NCBI GenBank assembly: GCA_015233015.1
Contig: JADFYO010000007.1
Span: forward strand, 1-64,000
Length of the DNA stretch: 64,000 nt
Source of the DNA: Nitrospirota bacterium
Lineage (GTDB): Bacteria; Nitrospirota; Thermodesulfovibrionia; Thermodesulfovibrionales; Magnetobacteriaceae
Reading direction: 5' to 3'
Shown here: in pieces, positions 16,270-43,733 of the stretch
Layout of the letters: each line of letters opens with the position of its first letter
Position numbering within the stretch: the stretch's first letter is position 1
The notes under the pieces: generated by a model
Database searches by the model: none
Seen by the model: only the letters and a program-made list of their open reading frames with translations
What the model was told of the DNA's origin: nothing
Position numbers and translations under genes: made by a program

Positions 16270-18192
16270 TTACTTTACCTGCGCACCGGCTGCGATGTCC
16301 CTCTCTACCGTTATCAGCGTCAGCCCTCCTTCGGAGTCCGAGGCGGCCAGCACCATGCCCTGCGATTCCACGCCCATCAACTTCGCGGGCTTCAGGTTTG
16401 CCACTATTACTACGGTCTTGCCTACCAGCTCCTCCGGCTGATAGTGTTTCCCTATGCCTGCTACTATCTGGCGCTCCTCACCGGAGTCAACCGTCAGCCT
16501 GATCAGTTTATTTGAACCCTTGACTGCCTCGGCGGTTAGTACCCTCGCGGTCTTTAGCTTTACCTTTGCGAAATCGGTGATGTCTATTATGTCTATTACG
16601 TTTGCCATGGTTGTCATTGGTACCTCGTCTTTTTTTGGTTTGGCGGCAGATGGCTGCGGCGCCTTAGTGTCCGGTTCAATTCGTGGGAAAAGCTGCTCCA
16701 TTGCATGAATTGTTATATCTTTTTCAAGTAGCCCCCACTTAGCCGCTTGGGGAAGTTTTATATTTGATATGTCCCTCTGCGTTAAATGGTTGTAGAGCAT
16801 GCACATAGATTTTGGCATAAATGGATATAAATACAGGCTTACGAATCTGATACCCTCCAGTAGTGAATATATCACTGTACGCAGTCTGCCCCCGGTTTCG
16901 TTTGATTTGGCAAGTACCCAGGGCTTGTTCGTATCGATATATTTATTCAGATATGTTACGAGCGTCCAAATCTCGTCGAGTGCCTTATTGAAGGCAAGCT
17001 CATCGAGATGGCCATTGAGTTTCGACAAAATCCCCTCTGCGAGACGCTTTAGTTCCGGCTCAACCGCGTCAGGGGTTGGGATATTGCCGTTATAATATTT
17101 CGTCAGCATGGCAAATGACCTGCTGACCAGATTCCCAAGGTCATTGGCAAGGTCGGTATTAATCCTCCCGATAAGCGCCCCCTCAGAGAAATCCCCGTCA
17201 AGGCCGAACGTTACCTCGCGAAAGAGAAAATATCTCAGGGCGTCCGCTCCATATCGTTCAATTATATCAAACGGGTCAACCGCATTGCCCAGAGACTTCG
17301 ACATCTTTTGACCTTTGGTAGTCCACCACCCGTGAGCAAACAGGCGCTTTGGCAGGGGCATCCCCAAGGCCATCAACATAGCGCTCCAGAACACAGCGTG
17401 TGTGGTCAGAATATCCTTTCCTACTATGTGAACGGAGGCCGGCCAAAAGTCTTTCATATCGGCGCTTTTATAGCGTGTTGCCGAGTAATAGTTTATAAGG
17501 GCGTCAAACCATACATAGGTCACATAATTTTTATCAAACGGCATCGGCACACCCCATGAGAGCCTCTGGGACGGCCTCGATACGCACAAGTCCCCAAGTG
17601 CGTTCGACCTCAGAAACCCCAGTACCTCGTTTCGCCTGGATTCGGGCATTATATAGCCGGGATTGTCTTTTATGTGGCGTACGAGTGCGTCGTGATACTT
17701 TGACATCAGAAAGAAATAATTCTCCTCTTCTATATTCTCGACAGGTCTTCCGCAGTCAGGGCAGTTCCTGTCTTTTACGTCTTTGTCCGTCCAGAAACGT
17801 TCATCATGCGTACAGTACCAGCCTTCGTAACGGCGCTTTACAATTTCGCCCTTGTCGTAGAGGCGCTGAAGGAGCTCCTGTACTATCTCTATGTGCCCCG
17901 CGTCGGTAGTCCTGATGAATGCGTTATTTGTAATATCAAGTTTTGTCCAGAGATTTTCAAAATTCACACAGAGCTTGTCTGTGTGCTCCCTTGGGGATAA
18001 TCCTGCGTCGGAGGCAGCCTTAAGTACCTTCTGTCCGTGTTCGTCCGTACCTGTAAGGAAAAATACGGCGTTGCCCATCTGCCTGTTGAACCGCGCCAGT
18101 ATATCTGCCGCAACCGTCGTATAGGCGTGCCCGATATGCGGGACGTCGTTTACATAATATATCGGGGTTGTTACATAAAAAAAATCTTCCAT
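16270..18192 (-). CDS. metG: Methionyl-tRNA synthetase
   Basis: A 640-residue class I aminoacyl-tRNA synthetase that charges tRNA-Met, including the initiator tRNA. The Rossmann fold carries the HIGH motif (VPHIGHAYTT) and KMSKS (GQKMSKSLGN). A zinc-binding insert contains CTHDERFW and NCPDCGRPV. The C-terminal ~110 residues (DFAKVKLKTARVLTAEAV to the end) are an EMAPII/Trbp111-type tRNA-binding dimerisation domain. This is the long form of the enzyme and the length is normal. It heads a leftward run of housekeeping genes with the ricT-like, holB and tmk genes upstream. Confidence 0.97.
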   Translation of the reverse strand: MEDFFYVTTPIYYVNDVPHIGHAYTTVAADILARFNRQMGNAVFFLTGTDEHGQKVLKAASDAGLSPREHTDKLCVNFENLWTKLDITNNAFIRTTDAGHIEIVQELLQRLYDKGEIVKRRYEGWYCTHDERFWTDKDVKDRNCPDCGRPVENIEEENYFFLMSKYHDALVRHIKDNPGYIMPESRRNEVLGFLRSNALGDLCVSRPSQRLSWGVPMPFDKNYVTYVWFDALINYYSATRYKSADMKDFWPASVHIVGKDILTTHAVFWSAMLMALGMPLPKRLFAHGWWTTKGQKMSKSLGNAVDPFDIIERYGADALRYFLFREVTFGLDGDFSEGALIGRINTDLANDLGNLVSRSFAMLTKYYNGNIPTPDAVEPELKRLAEGILSKLNGHLDELAFNKALDEIWTLVTYLNKYIDTNKPWVLAKSNETGGRLRTVIYSLLEGIRFVSLYLYPFMPKSMCMLYNHLTQRDISNIKLPQAAKWGLLEKDITIHAMEQLFPRIEPDTKAPQPSAAKPKKDEVPMTTMANVIDIIDITDFAKVKLKTARVLTAEAVKGSNKLIRLTVDSGEERQIVAGIGKHYQPEELVGKTVVIVANLKPAKLMGVESQGMVLAASDSEGGLTLITVERDIAAGAQVK

Positions 18193-18233: not shown

Positions 18234-19307
18234 TTACGGTTTCTTTTTAGCCTTGAACTTTCTGAATCTCCATTTGTTTTTCTTCCCGGTGGGTTCTGCT
18301 TTCGCGTCCGCAGGTGTGTCCTTAGGCGCATCTGGATTGGCTTCAGGGTTTGCCGGTTCCTGTGGGACGGCCTTCGCCTCAACTGCCTCTTTTGTCTCTA
18401 TCAGAGGGGCAGCCGGGGAATGTCTCTTAGTAAAGTGCTTTTTCCTGCGGTCACGATTTTTCAATGCCCCTGTGCCGTTTTCAAGTGTGGGGTCTGTGGC
18501 TTCTCCGCCGGTTATACCGGGGGACTTGGCGTCTTCACGGCTGTCGCCAAATTTTGATCGCGAATGTCTCTCCTCTGCCGTGTTAATAGAAAACTCGTTT
18601 TTCGCTTCGCCGATTAAATCCTCCAGAGCAACATCTTCTTTGATTATTATGGCATCTTCCGGGACGCACTCTGAATGGAAATCCTCCACTTCAAACCCAA
18701 GGCAGCACATCAGCCTGCCACAAAGCCCCGATAATTTGCCGGGATTTAAGACAAGGTCTTGTTTTTTTGCCATTCTGATAGAAATTGGGGCAAAATTCGA
18801 CAGAAATGTCCTGCAGCATACCTCCCTGCCGCATATGCCTATCCCCCCTATGAGCTTTGTCTCATCCCTTACGCCAATTTGGCGCATCTCTATTCGCGTC
18901 TTGAATCTTGACGCAAGGTCCTTCACAAGCTCCCTGAAATCTATCCTGCCGTCGGCCGTAAAATAAAACACTATGCGCCGCCTGTCAAGGGTTACTTCCG
19001 TATGCACCAGTTTCATGGGAAGTCCGCGAATGGCTATCCTCTCCGTACAGTACTCTCTTGTCTCTTGTTCCAGAAGATCGTTGCTTACCTTTGCATTTAT
19101 GTCCTCTTCGGTAACGCTTCGGATGACTTTCTTTAGCTCCTTATCGGCGGCTTCTATGGTTTTCTCCCCAATCACTATGTTTCCTATAGTCAGGCCAAAA
19201 CTCGATTCCACCACGACGAAATCGCCAACCTTTACTGTAAGACCGTCTATCTCGAAATCGTAAATCTTGCCGCATTTCTTAAATCTGATACCAACAACTG
19301 TAGGCAT
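18234..19307 (-). CDS. PSP1-domain protein, RicT/YaaT-like
   Basis: 357 residues. The first ~250 form a PSP1 domain like that of Bacillus RicT (YaaT): MPTVVGIRFKKCGKIYDF, VVESSFGLTIGNIV, RRRIVFYFTADGRIDFRELV and the Cys-rich GGIGICGREVCCRTFL...GLCGRLMCCLGFE, which may bind an iron-sulfur cluster. The last ~100 residues are a low-complexity, Lys/Ala/Pro-rich, highly basic tail (ending KNKWRFRKFKAKKKP), which may bind RNA. In Bacillus RicT acts in RNA maturation and phosphorelay; here the role is inferred only. Being next to holB and tmk is the common arrangement of this family. Confidence 0.88.
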   Translation of the reverse strand: MPTVVGIRFKKCGKIYDFEIDGLTVKVGDFVVVESSFGLTIGNIVIGEKTIEAADKELKKVIRSVTEEDINAKVSNDLLEQETREYCTERIAIRGLPMKLVHTEVTLDRRRIVFYFTADGRIDFRELVKDLASRFKTRIEMRQIGVRDETKLIGGIGICGREVCCRTFLSNFAPISIRMAKKQDLVLNPGKLSGLCGRLMCCLGFEVEDFHSECVPEDAIIIKEDVALEDLIGEAKNEFSINTAEERHSRSKFGDSREDAKSPGITGGEATDPTLENGTGALKNRDRRKKHFTKRHSPAAPLIETKEAVEAKAVPQEPANPEANPDAPKDTPADAKAEPTGKKNKWRFRKFKAKKKP

Positions 19308-19322
19308 ATTCAGTAAACCCCT

Positions 19323-20351
19323 TTATTTAGAGCTATTGGAGACACTCCTGAAAACGTCTCTGAGTTTTGAGGCTGTATAATTAAACACAATGCCCTTGTT
19401 TATATTCAACACGAAATACCTGCTCAGGTTGAAAAAGGTTTCATAACAATCTATTATCGCCTCAATATCAGTGCCTGTGCACAGTCCGGTAATCTCTGCC
19501 TTCTTGTCCATATTCAATAAGGCGGTGTGTCCCAGTTTCAACACTGCCATATCCCTGAGAAACGTCATCGCGGCCTCAAACCATAAGGACATCTCCTGTC
19601 TGTCTTTCCACTGTTGTGCGTCCCTGCCGCCGGCCATTCCCGTAAACGTCAGAAGCGCCCTGTTGCGCACGCTTACCAGTGCGTCGTTTAACATAGCTCC
19701 CGCGCTGCCGTTTGACAAGCCGATTTGTTCGTCCGTCACCTCAGCACCCTTTTTGTCCGCTATAGCACGTAATACCTTAAAAGAAAGAGGTACAAAGGGT
19801 ACATTTACGCACCTTGAGCGTATCGTATCCAACAGGAGCTCCTTCTTGTGGGTTATCAACACGATGACGCTGCCCGCTGTGGGCTCTTCGAGGGTCTTAA
19901 GAAAGGCATTTCCGGCCTGAGGATTCATCGCATGAGCATCTTTAATTATAACTGCCTTTCCCCGCCACTCCATAGCGCTGGTCGATAAGAACTCGCCTGC
20001 CTCCCTGATTTGATCTATTTGTATAACCCGGCTCACTTCTTTGGCTTGACCAGTTTTGTCAGCCTTCGCAGCCTTGTCCTTGACGGTGTCCTCAGGGGTT
20101 ATTACCCTTAGGTCGGGATGCACAAGTGAGTCCGTGTTTTTACATGAGCGGCAGCTGCCGCAAAAATTCCCCTCTCCGGCAGAGACAGCGTCTTCACAGT
20201 GCATCGCCTTTATAAATGAAAAGGCCGCCGTTGTCTTTCCCACTCCGCGAGGACCGGCAAATAAATATGCGGGGACAATCCTTCCTGTATTGAGCATTCC
20301 GCCGAGTATTCTCAACGCCCTTGGTTGACCCATTAACTTGTTTAACGGCAT
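19323..20351 (-). CDS. holB: DNA polymerase III delta prime subunit
   Basis: A 342-residue clamp-loader subunit (AAA+ fold). It has a P-loop (GPRGVGKTTAAF), four cysteines of the zinc module (NFCGSCRSCKN region), the sensor/Walker-B-like region AVIIKDAHAMNPQAGNAFLK, and SRC-type arginine finger (IRSRCVNVPF). A long insertion replaces the normal distance between zinc module and Walker B (EDTVKDKAAKADKTGQAKEV). It loads the sliding clamp onto DNA. It overlaps the end of tmk by ten bases and is followed by ricT-like after ~15 bases, so tmk-holB-ricT-metG form one operon. Confidence 0.92.
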   Translation of the reverse strand: MPLNKLMGQPRALRILGGMLNTGRIVPAYLFAGPRGVGKTTAAFSFIKAMHCEDAVSAGEGNFCGSCRSCKNTDSLVHPDLRVITPEDTVKDKAAKADKTGQAKEVSRVIQIDQIREAGEFLSTSAMEWRGKAVIIKDAHAMNPQAGNAFLKTLEEPTAGSVIVLITHKKELLLDTIRSRCVNVPFVPLSFKVLRAIADKKGAEVTDEQIGLSNGSAGAMLNDALVSVRNRALLTFTGMAGGRDAQQWKDRQEMSLWFEAAMTFLRDMAVLKLGHTALLNMDKKAEITGLCTGTDIEAIIDCYETFFNLSRYFVLNINKGIVFNYTASKLRDVFRSVSNSSK

Positions 20352-20959
20352 CGCAGCCTTTCCTCTATTGCCGCAACTATCGCCTTCGTTACAACGGCAG
20401 TATCTGTCGAGGCGTCAATCAGCTTAATACGCCCAGGCTCCGTTTTTGCCAATTCCAGAAACCCGGCGCGAACCTTTTCGTGAAAGACAAGAGGCTCAAG
20501 CTCAAACCGGTCTGACTTGCTTGCCGCTTGATTTCTGCCGAGGCCAATATTGGGGGACAGATCAAGTAAAAAGGTCATATCGGGGCGAAGGCCTCCTGTT
20601 GCTATTTTATCGATTTCCATAATCAGCCGCTTATCAAGCCCCCTGCCATAGCACTGATAGGCAATGGTTGAATCAGTAAACCTGTCCGTTATGACAACGG
20701 CGCGATTCTCTATCGCAGGGGAAATCACCTCTGCCAGGTGCTGCGCCCTTGCCGCGTTATATAGCAGGAGTTCCGTCAGTGGGGTCATATGTTGAAAACT
20801 ATTATCGAGTAAGATTTCCCTTATTCTCCTGCCTGTTTCTGTGCCGCCCGGTTCAAACGTGGCTACTGTCTCAAAGCCCGCTGCGCGTAACTGCTCCGAT
20901 ACCAGTCGAACCTGAGTGGTCTTGCCCGCCCCTTCTATGCCTTCAATAGATATAAATAT
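20342..20959 (-). CDS. tmk: Thymidylate kinase with a probable AUA start codon
   Basis: dTMP kinase, making dTDP for DNA synthesis. The protein reads (M)FISIEGIEGAGKTTQVRLV at the N-terminus with the P-loop, then the DR motif TDRFTDSTIAYQ, the lid region and the typical C-terminus; from 20959 it has 205 residues, the family norm. The only ATG in frame is far inside (20788), which would delete the P-loop. Upstream of the P-loop there is a stop (TAATGG...) and no ATG, GTG or TTG. The codon at 20957-20959 is ATA, eight bases after GAGGAGG, and falls exactly where the family has Met. AUA is therefore the likely start; ACG or ATT are alternatives. It follows the core-metE-like gene by 27 bases. 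Confidence 0.88.
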   Translation of the reverse strand: MFISIEGIEGAGKTTQVRLVSEQLRAAGFETVATFEPGGTETGRRIREILLDNSFQHMTPLTELLLYNAARAQHLAEVISPAIENRAVVITDRFTDSTIAYQCYGRGLDKRLIMEIDKIATGGLRPDMTFLLDLSPNIGLGRNQAASKSDRFELEPLVFHEKVRAGFLELAKTEPGRIKLIDASTDTAVVTKAIVAAIEERLRCR

Positions 20960-20986
20960 CGCCGTTGCCTCCTCAAATAAAATCCA

Positions 20987-22024
20987 TTACAGGTTCTCCG
21001 CAAGGAGGTATTGCTTCAATCCCTTCAGGAGGGCAAACACCTTCTCTGACTCTGCCGTGCTTAACGAACCCGTGCCACACGACGGCGTAAGCATGATGTT
21101 GGAAACAAGCAAGCTGTCAAACTTTTGAAGCCTTTCGTAACGCTCCATGAATTTCCTCTTTATCCCATCGGCGTCTTCAGTTCTTACCGTCTCGGTCGTA
21201 GGAACGATACCCCAGGCCATTGTGCCTCCGGCTGCAACATAATCAATCATTTCATCGCGATAAATCGCTATGGCGTCGAAATACCCGTAGGCATCGAAAT
21301 TTACAATGTCCGGCCTGACATTGAAGACCATAGGCCAGTCACAGTTGCCGCAGCAGTGCAGGCCGGCAACAGCGCCGGTCTGTTTCACACCGTCGATGGT
21401 CTGCTTTAAGAGCCTTGTGATCTCTGCCCCGGAAATCCCCAAATACGCGCTTGAGCCGACTGAGGAAAGCACCGGCTCATCGATAAAGATGATGACCGTG
21501 TCGGCCAGTTCTTTTAGCCTCTCCACCTGCCACGCGGCCTTAGAGATCAGCAGCATGACGGCGATTTCCCTGAGTTCCTCGTCGTAAAAAATGTCTCTGC
21601 CGTCACGGTCTTTCAATCCAAGGGTAAAGGTCATGGGGCCGGTTATATGTCCTTTGATAAATGGCAATTTCCCTCCAGATTGCAGGAGGTGCGTACTTCG
21701 CAATTCCCTGAGCATCCCGTAAAACCCCGCGGCATAGAACTCCGATATGGAAGATACAGGAGCGACATCTGAGTATGCCTCATAAAACTGTCTCAGAGGC
21801 GTGTCGTCCTCTTGTCTTTCTATCCAGACGCGCTCTCTCGATTCGTCTATTTTTACAAAAGGCATCCCCTCCGAGTACTGCAGGAGCATGGATTCGGTGA
21901 ATGCCCTTCTCGGCAGCTGAGGCCAAAACGGTATGTCAAAGTTTTCAATCACCGCGCTGCACGCCTCCCTTGCGTTATCATAGGGGAGACTTCCAATGCC
22001 GGTCGTAGTAAATTTAGGGAACAT
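20987..22024 (-). CDS. Core-MetE-like methionine synthase (UROD/MetE-type methyltransferase)
   Basis: A 345-residue protein equal in size to the C-terminal catalytic half of cobalamin-independent methionine synthase. It begins FPKFTTTGIGSLPY, has a catalytic acid region (VIIFIDEPVLSSVGS), the zinc ligands His-x-Cys at GLHCCGNCDW and a distal Cys at MLTPSCGTGSL. It lacks the N-terminal half needed for 5-methyltetrahydrofolate use. In related anaerobes such short proteins are thought to transfer a methyl group from a corrinoid protein to homocysteine, so methionine synthesis is plausible but the donor is inferred. It is the first gene of the run with tmk and holB. An uncharacterised methyltransferase remains possible. 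Confidence 0.8.
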   Translation of the reverse strand: MFPKFTTTGIGSLPYDNAREACSAVIENFDIPFWPQLPRRAFTESMLLQYSEGMPFVKIDESRERVWIERQEDDTPLRQFYEAYSDVAPVSSISEFYAAGFYGMLRELRSTHLLQSGGKLPFIKGHITGPMTFTLGLKDRDGRDIFYDEELREIAVMLLISKAAWQVERLKELADTVIIFIDEPVLSSVGSSAYLGISGAEITRLLKQTIDGVKQTGAVAGLHCCGNCDWPMVFNVRPDIVNFDAYGYFDAIAIYRDEMIDYVAAGGTMAWGIVPTTETVRTEDADGIKRKFMERYERLQKFDSLLVSNIMLTPSCGTGSLSTAESEKVFALLKGLKQYLLAENL

Positions 22025-43427: not shown

Positions 43428-43700
43428 ATGAGAGGAAACGAGTATATACGCATGAAACGAATCGAACAAGGATTATCATTACGGGATCTCAGTGCAAAAT
43501 GTGGCATGTCTCATGCCCAGATAGCCTCAATCGAGCGCGGCGAGCATAAGATCATATTCGATAATTTGCTCAAGATAATGAACGGCCTCGAAATATCAAT
43601 GTATGATTTCCTGAATGTTGTAGGCTATTTTCCGCCGAGCTATAGTAAAGAGGATGTGGTGGCGGGGGGTGGATTTGAACCACCGGCCTTCGGGTTATGA
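43428..43700 (+). CDS. XRE-family helix-turn-helix regulator ending inside the tRNA gene
   Basis: 90 residues. Residues 1-65 form a Cro/C1-type HTH (IRMKRIEQGLSLRDLSAKCG, SHAQIASIERGEHK). AGGAGG precedes the start. After ~75 residues (YFPPSYSKEDVV) the frame enters the antisense of tRNA-fMet and adds AGGGFEPPAFGL, a well-known signature of translated tRNA antisense. So the natural C-terminus is shaped by the attachment site. It is probably the element's regulator, opposite to the RepO gene. Confidence 0.75.
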   Translation: MRGNEYIRMKRIEQGLSLRDLSAKCGMSHAQIASIERGEHKIIFDNLLKIMNGLEISMYDFLNVVGYFPPSYSKEDVVAGGGFEPPAFGL

Positions 43701-43733
43701 GCCCGACGAGCTACCGAGCTGCTCCACCCCGCG
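43657..43733 (-). tRNA. Initiator tRNA-Met (CAT anticodon)
   Basis: Read leftward: 5' acceptor CGCGGGG, D-arm GAGCAGCTCGGTAGCTC, anticodon arm CGGGCTCATAACCCG with CAT, T-arm GGTGGTTCAAATCCACC, acceptor CCCCGCC, discriminator A and encoded CCA. Three G-C pairs in the anticodon stem (GGG / CCC) and a mismatched 1-72 pair (C-C) are the hallmarks of the initiator tRNA. Folding checked by eye. The DNA downstream of its 3' end is the putative integrated element. Confidence 0.95.

Follow-up and report, generated by a model that had tools for sequence, protein, structure and literature searches.

An apparent AUA start codon conserved on the thymidylate kinase gene of Candidatus Magnetominusculus

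The gene for thymidylate kinase, tmk, is in all probability translated from an AUA codon in Candidatus Magnetominusculus, a magnet-sensing genus of the phylum Nitrospirota. A Shine-Dalgarno (SD) sequence and an ordinary initiator tRNA would serve this initiation, which is expected to be slow and open to rejection by IF3 and to keep Tmk at a low level. The argument builds on the sequence and frame of the gene, its SD sequence, the lack of a canonical alternative, the conservation of this arrangement in the genus and the canonical starts found outside it. Genes that start at AUH codons are already known as a kind; tmk with AUA is an addition to them, in a genus where the trait is found in several genes.

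The tmk gene and its start region

We analyzed a 64,000-nucleotide stretch of one genome of the genus (contig JADFYO010000007.1, assembly GCA_015233015.1), which we call the window and to which all positions refer unless a contig or locus is named. Read from ATA, tmk occupies positions 20342 to 20959 on the minus strand and comprises 205 codons and a stop codon (20344-20342, minus). Its product is identified as a dTMP kinase by profile scores above curated cut-offs, with 183.3 bits for TIGR00041 (cut-off 83.25) and 181.2 bits for PF02223 (cut-off 27), and its catalysis is putative. The window genome, estimated to be 99.23% complete, contains a single PF02223 match, which is tmk itself; a family search across this genome for a second tmk copy found none.

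The reading frame of tmk is closed upstream by a TAA codon (20987..20989, minus) that doubles as the stop codon of the preceding gene. A downstream limit for the start is set by the P-loop GIEGAGKT (codons 7-14; 20918..20941, minus), which we aligned to a solved thymidylate kinase. No ATG, GTG or TTG codon is present in frame between these two landmarks, and the first such codon of the gene is codon 58 (ATG at 20788), beyond the P-loop. The proposed start codon is the ATA at 20957..20959 (minus), which follows the SD sequence GAGGAGG (20968..20974, minus) by 8 nt. Translation beginning at or near this ATA is the only arrangement that puts the P-loop near the N-terminus, and alignments of Tmk with solved thymidylate kinases start at residue 1, 2 or 3. 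If tmk is read from AUA, the predicted N-terminus of the protein is (fM)FISIEGIEGAGK. The in-frame stop, GAGGAGG, the 8-base spacer, ATA and the P-loop had been described in an earlier sequence-only reading of this DNA, and both sequence and frame are as given there. That reading also listed the possible starts, but its list omitted the codons between ATA and the P-loop, two of which are likewise of the AUH type: ATA at codon 3 and ATT at codon 5. Their distances of 14 and 20 nt from the SD sequence make them poor candidates for a start.

The gene upstream of tmk encodes a distant methionine-synthase-like protein (20987..22024, minus; 29.3 bits for PRK00957, below the cut-off of 258, and no Pfam match) and ends 27 nt before the ATA. 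An open reading frame that is similar by eye precedes tmk in all five congeners read. Downstream, tmk shares its last 10 bases with a holB-like gene for the delta prime subunit of DNA polymerase III (19323..20351, minus; 151.7 bits for PF13177, and 171.2 bits for TIGR00678, below the cut-off of 180.6), which begins with ATG, and an ATG likewise stands shortly before the tmk stop codon in 5/5 congeners read. This arrangement makes translational coupling between tmk and holB possible, in which case a weak tmk start may limit holB as well. The same gene run continues with a PSP1-domain gene (18234..19307, minus) and ends with a methionyl-tRNA synthetase-like gene identified from its translation (16270..18192, minus), which we take to be metG. 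We also considered RNA structure in the leader as an explanation of the tmk start. Folding of the start regions in the genus revealed no common feature, and this explanation was rejected for want of a common fold; in M. xianensis, the start region has more structure than shuffled versions of it (z -2.74).

Conservation in the genus and alternative explanations

Our genus set consisted of seven Candidatus Magnetominusculus genomes, six of which gave tmk matches: the window genome and five others, namely Candidatus Magnetominusculus xianensis HCH-1, Magnetominusculus sp. LBB02 and three Nitrospirae MAGs. The seventh genome (G002), which is 75% complete, had no tmk match. In 6/6 tmk-bearing genomes the start codon is ATA, an in-frame stop lies upstream of it, and no canonical codon occurs from that stop to codon 8. 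The SD sequence is GAGGAGG in five of the six and GGGAGGG in M. xianensis, at a spacing of 7-8 nt. The rest of the leader varies among congeners while the SD sequence and ATA are retained, and ahead of ATA the codons, apart from the SD sequence itself, show no conservation at the protein level; conserved protein begins at ATA. In M. xianensis, a second in-frame ATA is found two codons upstream, 1 nt from the SD sequence.

Tmk is 78-81% identical to the proteins of its congeners, and pairwise identity at four-fold sites of tmk within the genus is 49-82%. Given this divergence, the one-step change from ATA to ATG was open to these genes yet was not taken. That ATA does not vary says little by itself, because this codon is no better conserved than those for other isoleucines: four of the nine other invariant isoleucine columns are also codon-invariant. 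The telling point is that none of the six genomes carries ATG, GTG or TTG up to codon 8. A standard start in relatives had been named in the sequence-only reading as an observation that would count against AUA initiation, and within the genus there is no such start. Together with the SD sequence and its spacing and the lack of a canonical alternative, the 6/6 conservation strongly supports initiation of tmk at AUA, as that reading had proposed.

Outside the genus, one or more canonical codons precede the P-loop in 103/103 tmk loci, which do not amount to 103 independent lineages, since 65 of them are from Pseudomonas, some may represent the same genome twice, and in one of them (L034, 35% identical) the two canonical codons fall inside the aligned protein. 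Of all loci compared, only those of Magnetominusculus have AUA with no canonical alternative. The family's other genera have the same protein with an aligned start position but use ATG or GTG there in 10/11 tmk loci, the eleventh being L034, which makes AUA a derived trait of Magnetominusculus. The ATA corresponds to residue 1 of other Tmk proteins, as the earlier reading had indicated by aligning it to their Met. As judged from these sequences, the AUA start has most likely a single origin, at the base of the genus, and was then retained; the six ATA genomes possibly share one ancestral event and hence do not represent six independent origins.

Several other explanations would leave tmk with a different start. 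The window comes from one draft genome of 149 contigs, so that a sequencing or assembly error might conceal a true ATG. The same ATA, however, stands in six genomes from different assemblies, M. xianensis HCH-1 and LBB02 among them, and any two of their tmk genes disagree at 18-51% of four-fold sites; the presence of ATA in such diverged congeners excludes an error in practice, leaving this explanation a negligible probability. Initiation at a different non-canonical codon in the frame, whether the ATA of codon 3, the ATT of codon 5 or an ATT upstream of the SD sequence, draws on the fact that these are AUH codons and that codons 3 and 5 remain AUH in congeners. We nevertheless regard it as improbable: these codons lie too far from the SD sequence, at the distances given above, or upstream of it, the upstream ATT is missing from the leaders of the five congeners, and it is codon 1 that aligns with ATG or GTG in 10/11 tmk loci of the family's other genera. 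A canonical start in another frame could also give rise to Tmk by a frameshift, or by reinitiation after a mini-ORF, and the window does contain a candidate, ATG GAT TTT ATT TGA, which overlaps the tmk SD sequence. This mini-ORF is not retained, as the congener leaders differ except in the SD sequence and ATA, and a route of this sort seems very improbable to us. A start at the ATA of codon 1 thus remains the reading that we prefer.

Initiation machinery and comparison with known systems

The window carries an initiator-like tRNA gene (43660-43733, minus) whose anticodon is CAU and whose anticodon stem contains three G-C pairs (GGG/CCC). It came from a tRNA search with 42 matches, of which 30 were taken as loci and three genes with a CAT anticodon, called by ARAGORN, were read; matches outside those 30 loci were looked at only where they fell on a fetched locus. 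An unusual initiator tRNA was rejected as the basis of the AUA start, since the initiator-like gene has the CAU anticodon and the GGG/CCC stem and no altered anticodon was seen among the genes read. As a separate observation, this tRNA gene reads as having C1 opposite C72; in initiator tRNAs, C1 opposite A72 is the commoner form. IF3 of this lineage can be aligned to solved IF3 across residues 7-166 of 166.

With these components, we propose that the strong SD sequence (GAGGAGG or GGGAGGG, 7-8 nt upstream) would bring the tmk AUA into the P site of the ribosome, to be read there by the ordinary initiator tRNA (anticodon CAU) with a mismatch at the third position. Because of this mismatch, initiation would be slow and could be rejected by IF3, and Tmk, perhaps together with the product of the overlapping holB, would be held at a low level. 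Low and IF3-sensitive translation of tmk is plausible by analogy with infC and pcnB and with AUA- and AUU-started reporters of Staphylococcus aureus.

The AUU-started infC and pcnB genes of E. coli are the classical cases (PMC1780047, PMC4245954); in the account given in PMC1780047, AUU regulates infC and reduces expression of pcnB. Both genes start at AUU in the annotated record of E. coli MG1655. Three features of genes of this kind are each found in 6/6 tmk genes, namely no usable canonical codon, an SD sequence at a working distance and a conserved AUH codon; a fourth, initiation with fMet at that codon, is predicted for tmk. The tmk gene resembles infC and pcnB in having an SD sequence followed by a near-cognate AUH codon and differs from them in having AUA rather than AUU and in being another gene of another phylum, for which any feedback by Tmk or IF3 would be hypothetical.

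Closer in codon are the cases described for S. aureus (PMC13009471), where infC, ccpN and citZ start at AUA and cvfC1 starts at AUU. Ribosome profiling with retapamulin (infC, cvfC1 and ccpN) and reporters (cvfC1, ccpN and citZ) provide the evidence there; in poor medium, expression from the ccpN, citZ and cvfC1 reporters was about 10% of that with AUG, and ccpN reached up to 30% in rich medium (PMC13009471). Like tmk, the AUA-started genes among them have a strong SD sequence, and ccpN and cvfC1 also keep their non-canonical starts in relatives (PMC13009471). Unlike them, tmk is a different gene in a different phylum, and its start rests on sequence comparison. A further parallel is lepA of Borrelia burgdorferi and Bacillus licheniformis, for which an AUU start has been assumed (PMC1780047). 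The full-length frame of tmk can likewise be read only from an AUH codon and its start is likewise deduced from sequence; unlike lepA, tmk has AUA, and it has a genus-wide conservation that does not figure in the passage on lepA in that source (PMC1780047).

Among the papers returned by full-text searches of the open-access literature, no title or abstract opening described an AUA-started tmk or weak starts in Nitrospirota. With a conserved AUA on tmk, a gene of DNA-precursor synthesis and the phylum Nitrospirota would join the short list of AUH-started genes. There is also a practical side to this start, as gene finders limited to ATG, GTG and TTG are expected to begin tmk at codon 58 and to lose the P-loop, so that an essential enzyme would appear defective or absent.

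Other non-canonical starts in the lineage

We surveyed coding scores for genes that have no canonical codon near the coding boundary, and the window genome (G000) gave 17 among 597 coding-scored genes in 801.5 kb. Four of these were judged credible, tmk with ATA, pilC with ATT, a response-regulator gene with ATC and pilD with CTG; tmk was known in advance, and the other three were found blind. The other 13 were set aside by eye, the start lying further in, the frame being doubtful, or a matching SD sequence and codon being absent. One of them, a long ORF (C22:57409-59910) considered as a further AUA start, was dropped as unconserved, with ATG one codon later in most genus relatives. A survey based on the SD sequence, with a minimum SD of 6, found 8 AUH codons in the same genome, including those of pilC, the response regulator and tmk. 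The counts from the other genomes are not comparable rates, because the samples from G006, G014 and E. coli were partly chosen for known loci: the congener G006 gave 7 rows from 222 genes, including pilC and tmk, to which the SD survey added infC and an ATC at thrS; the sister genus genome G014 gave 17 rows from 312 genes, including thrS, infC and a weaker bioA-like ATC case, and six AUH rows in the SD survey, two of which were thrS and infC; G029, from another family, gave 11 rows from 298 genes, including thrS and infC, and three AUH rows in the SD survey, two of which were followed up; and the E. coli K-12 control gave 4 rows from 158 genes in 200 kb, with infC as the only AUH case. In this control the survey missed pcnB although it had been sampled, and the SD variant returned one false positive, an ATA that precedes the annotated rpnC start.

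The gene for IF3 itself, infC, has ATA after GGAGGT or GGAGGG in 15/16 loci of this family, among them each of the 5 that were found in Magnetominusculus; in the window genome (contig C67; loci L153 and L279) the ATA follows AGGAGGT. In 12 of the 15 loci, the stretch from the upstream stop to ATA is free of canonical codons. The remaining three have one in frame upstream of ATA, a TTG 14 codons up in the window genome and an ATG and a GTG two codons up, abutting the SD sequence, in G006 and G009. In this family, infC apparently starts at AUA, which would be compatible with discrimination against the tmk start by IF3. The pilC-like T2SSF gene of the window genome (contig C94; L161:2773-3966) starts at ATT after AGGAGGT, and its starts in the congeners G006, G002, G003 and G004 are ATA, ATC, ATA and ATC, respectively. 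An AUH start is therefore seen in 5/5 genus genomes with an orthologue, with no canonical codon from the upstream stop to the start; the two remaining genomes have distant pilC paralogues only, the five nearest pilC relatives from other genera use ATG or GTG, and in G003 and G004 an ATG follows ten codons after the AUH codon. The prepilin-peptidase-like gene pilD (contig C83; L222:10507-11280, minus), so called from its sequence, has CTG after GGAGGG. This CTG is present in 6/7 genus genomes, where no canonical codon lies upstream in frame, and the seventh has GTG one codon on; in G003, a TTG occurs ten codons after the CTG. The earlier statement that AUA starts are very rare consequently needs qualifying for this lineage: infC apparently uses AUA too, and non-canonical starts are conserved for pilC and pilD.

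These genes raise the alternative that AUA is not a weak start at all in this genus and that start-codon selection is relaxed, with AUH and CUG codons being ordinary and without regulatory meaning. The AUH start of pilC in 5/5 genomes, the CTG of pilD in 6/7, the ATA of infC and the response-regulator ATC of one genome are all in keeping with it, as is the free variation of pilC among ATT, ATA and ATC, which is expected if AUH codons are equivalent. Against it, such starts form a small minority, with the 4 credible cases among the 597 genes scored, the initiator-like tRNA has its CAU anticodon and three G-C stem pairs, and IF3 aligns over residues 7-166 of 166. We consider relaxed selection unlikely and retain the view that the tmk AUA would be a weak start.

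A more ambitious idea is that, in Magnetominusculus and its family, infC (AUA), thrS (AUU or AUC), tmk (AUA), pilC (AUH) and pilD (CUG) form a start-codon regulon with a shared dependence on IF3 and initiator tRNA. We put this forward tentatively, as something that we would sooner doubt than expect. If it were true, autoregulation of IF3 would be coupled to DNA-precursor synthesis and to pilus or secretion assembly. Conserved weak starts recur in infC, tmk, pilC and pilD, which make up a natural set for asking whether IF3 stringency regulates a gene group beyond itself.

The remaining cases are more scattered. The thrS gene adjoins infC and has an apparent ATT start in four genomes of the sister genus (for instance L249:9313-11202, minus) and also in another family of the order (L295:3475-5199, minus). 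In Magnetominusculus, thrS perhaps starts at AUC, the alternative being an in-frame GTG inside the SD sequence, three codons before the ATC, in 5/5 loci; three thrS loci of genus g2 have a TTG nearby. The response-regulator/HD-domain gene of the window genome (contig C83, start at C83:37329; L167:17329-18429) has ATC after AGGAGG in this genome alone, and its two closest congener relatives, which are possibly paralogues, have GTG. Finally, in the sister genus genome G014, a reading frame that we presume to be BioA-like (L251:4690-6108, minus) has ATC after GAGGT, with no canonical start near.
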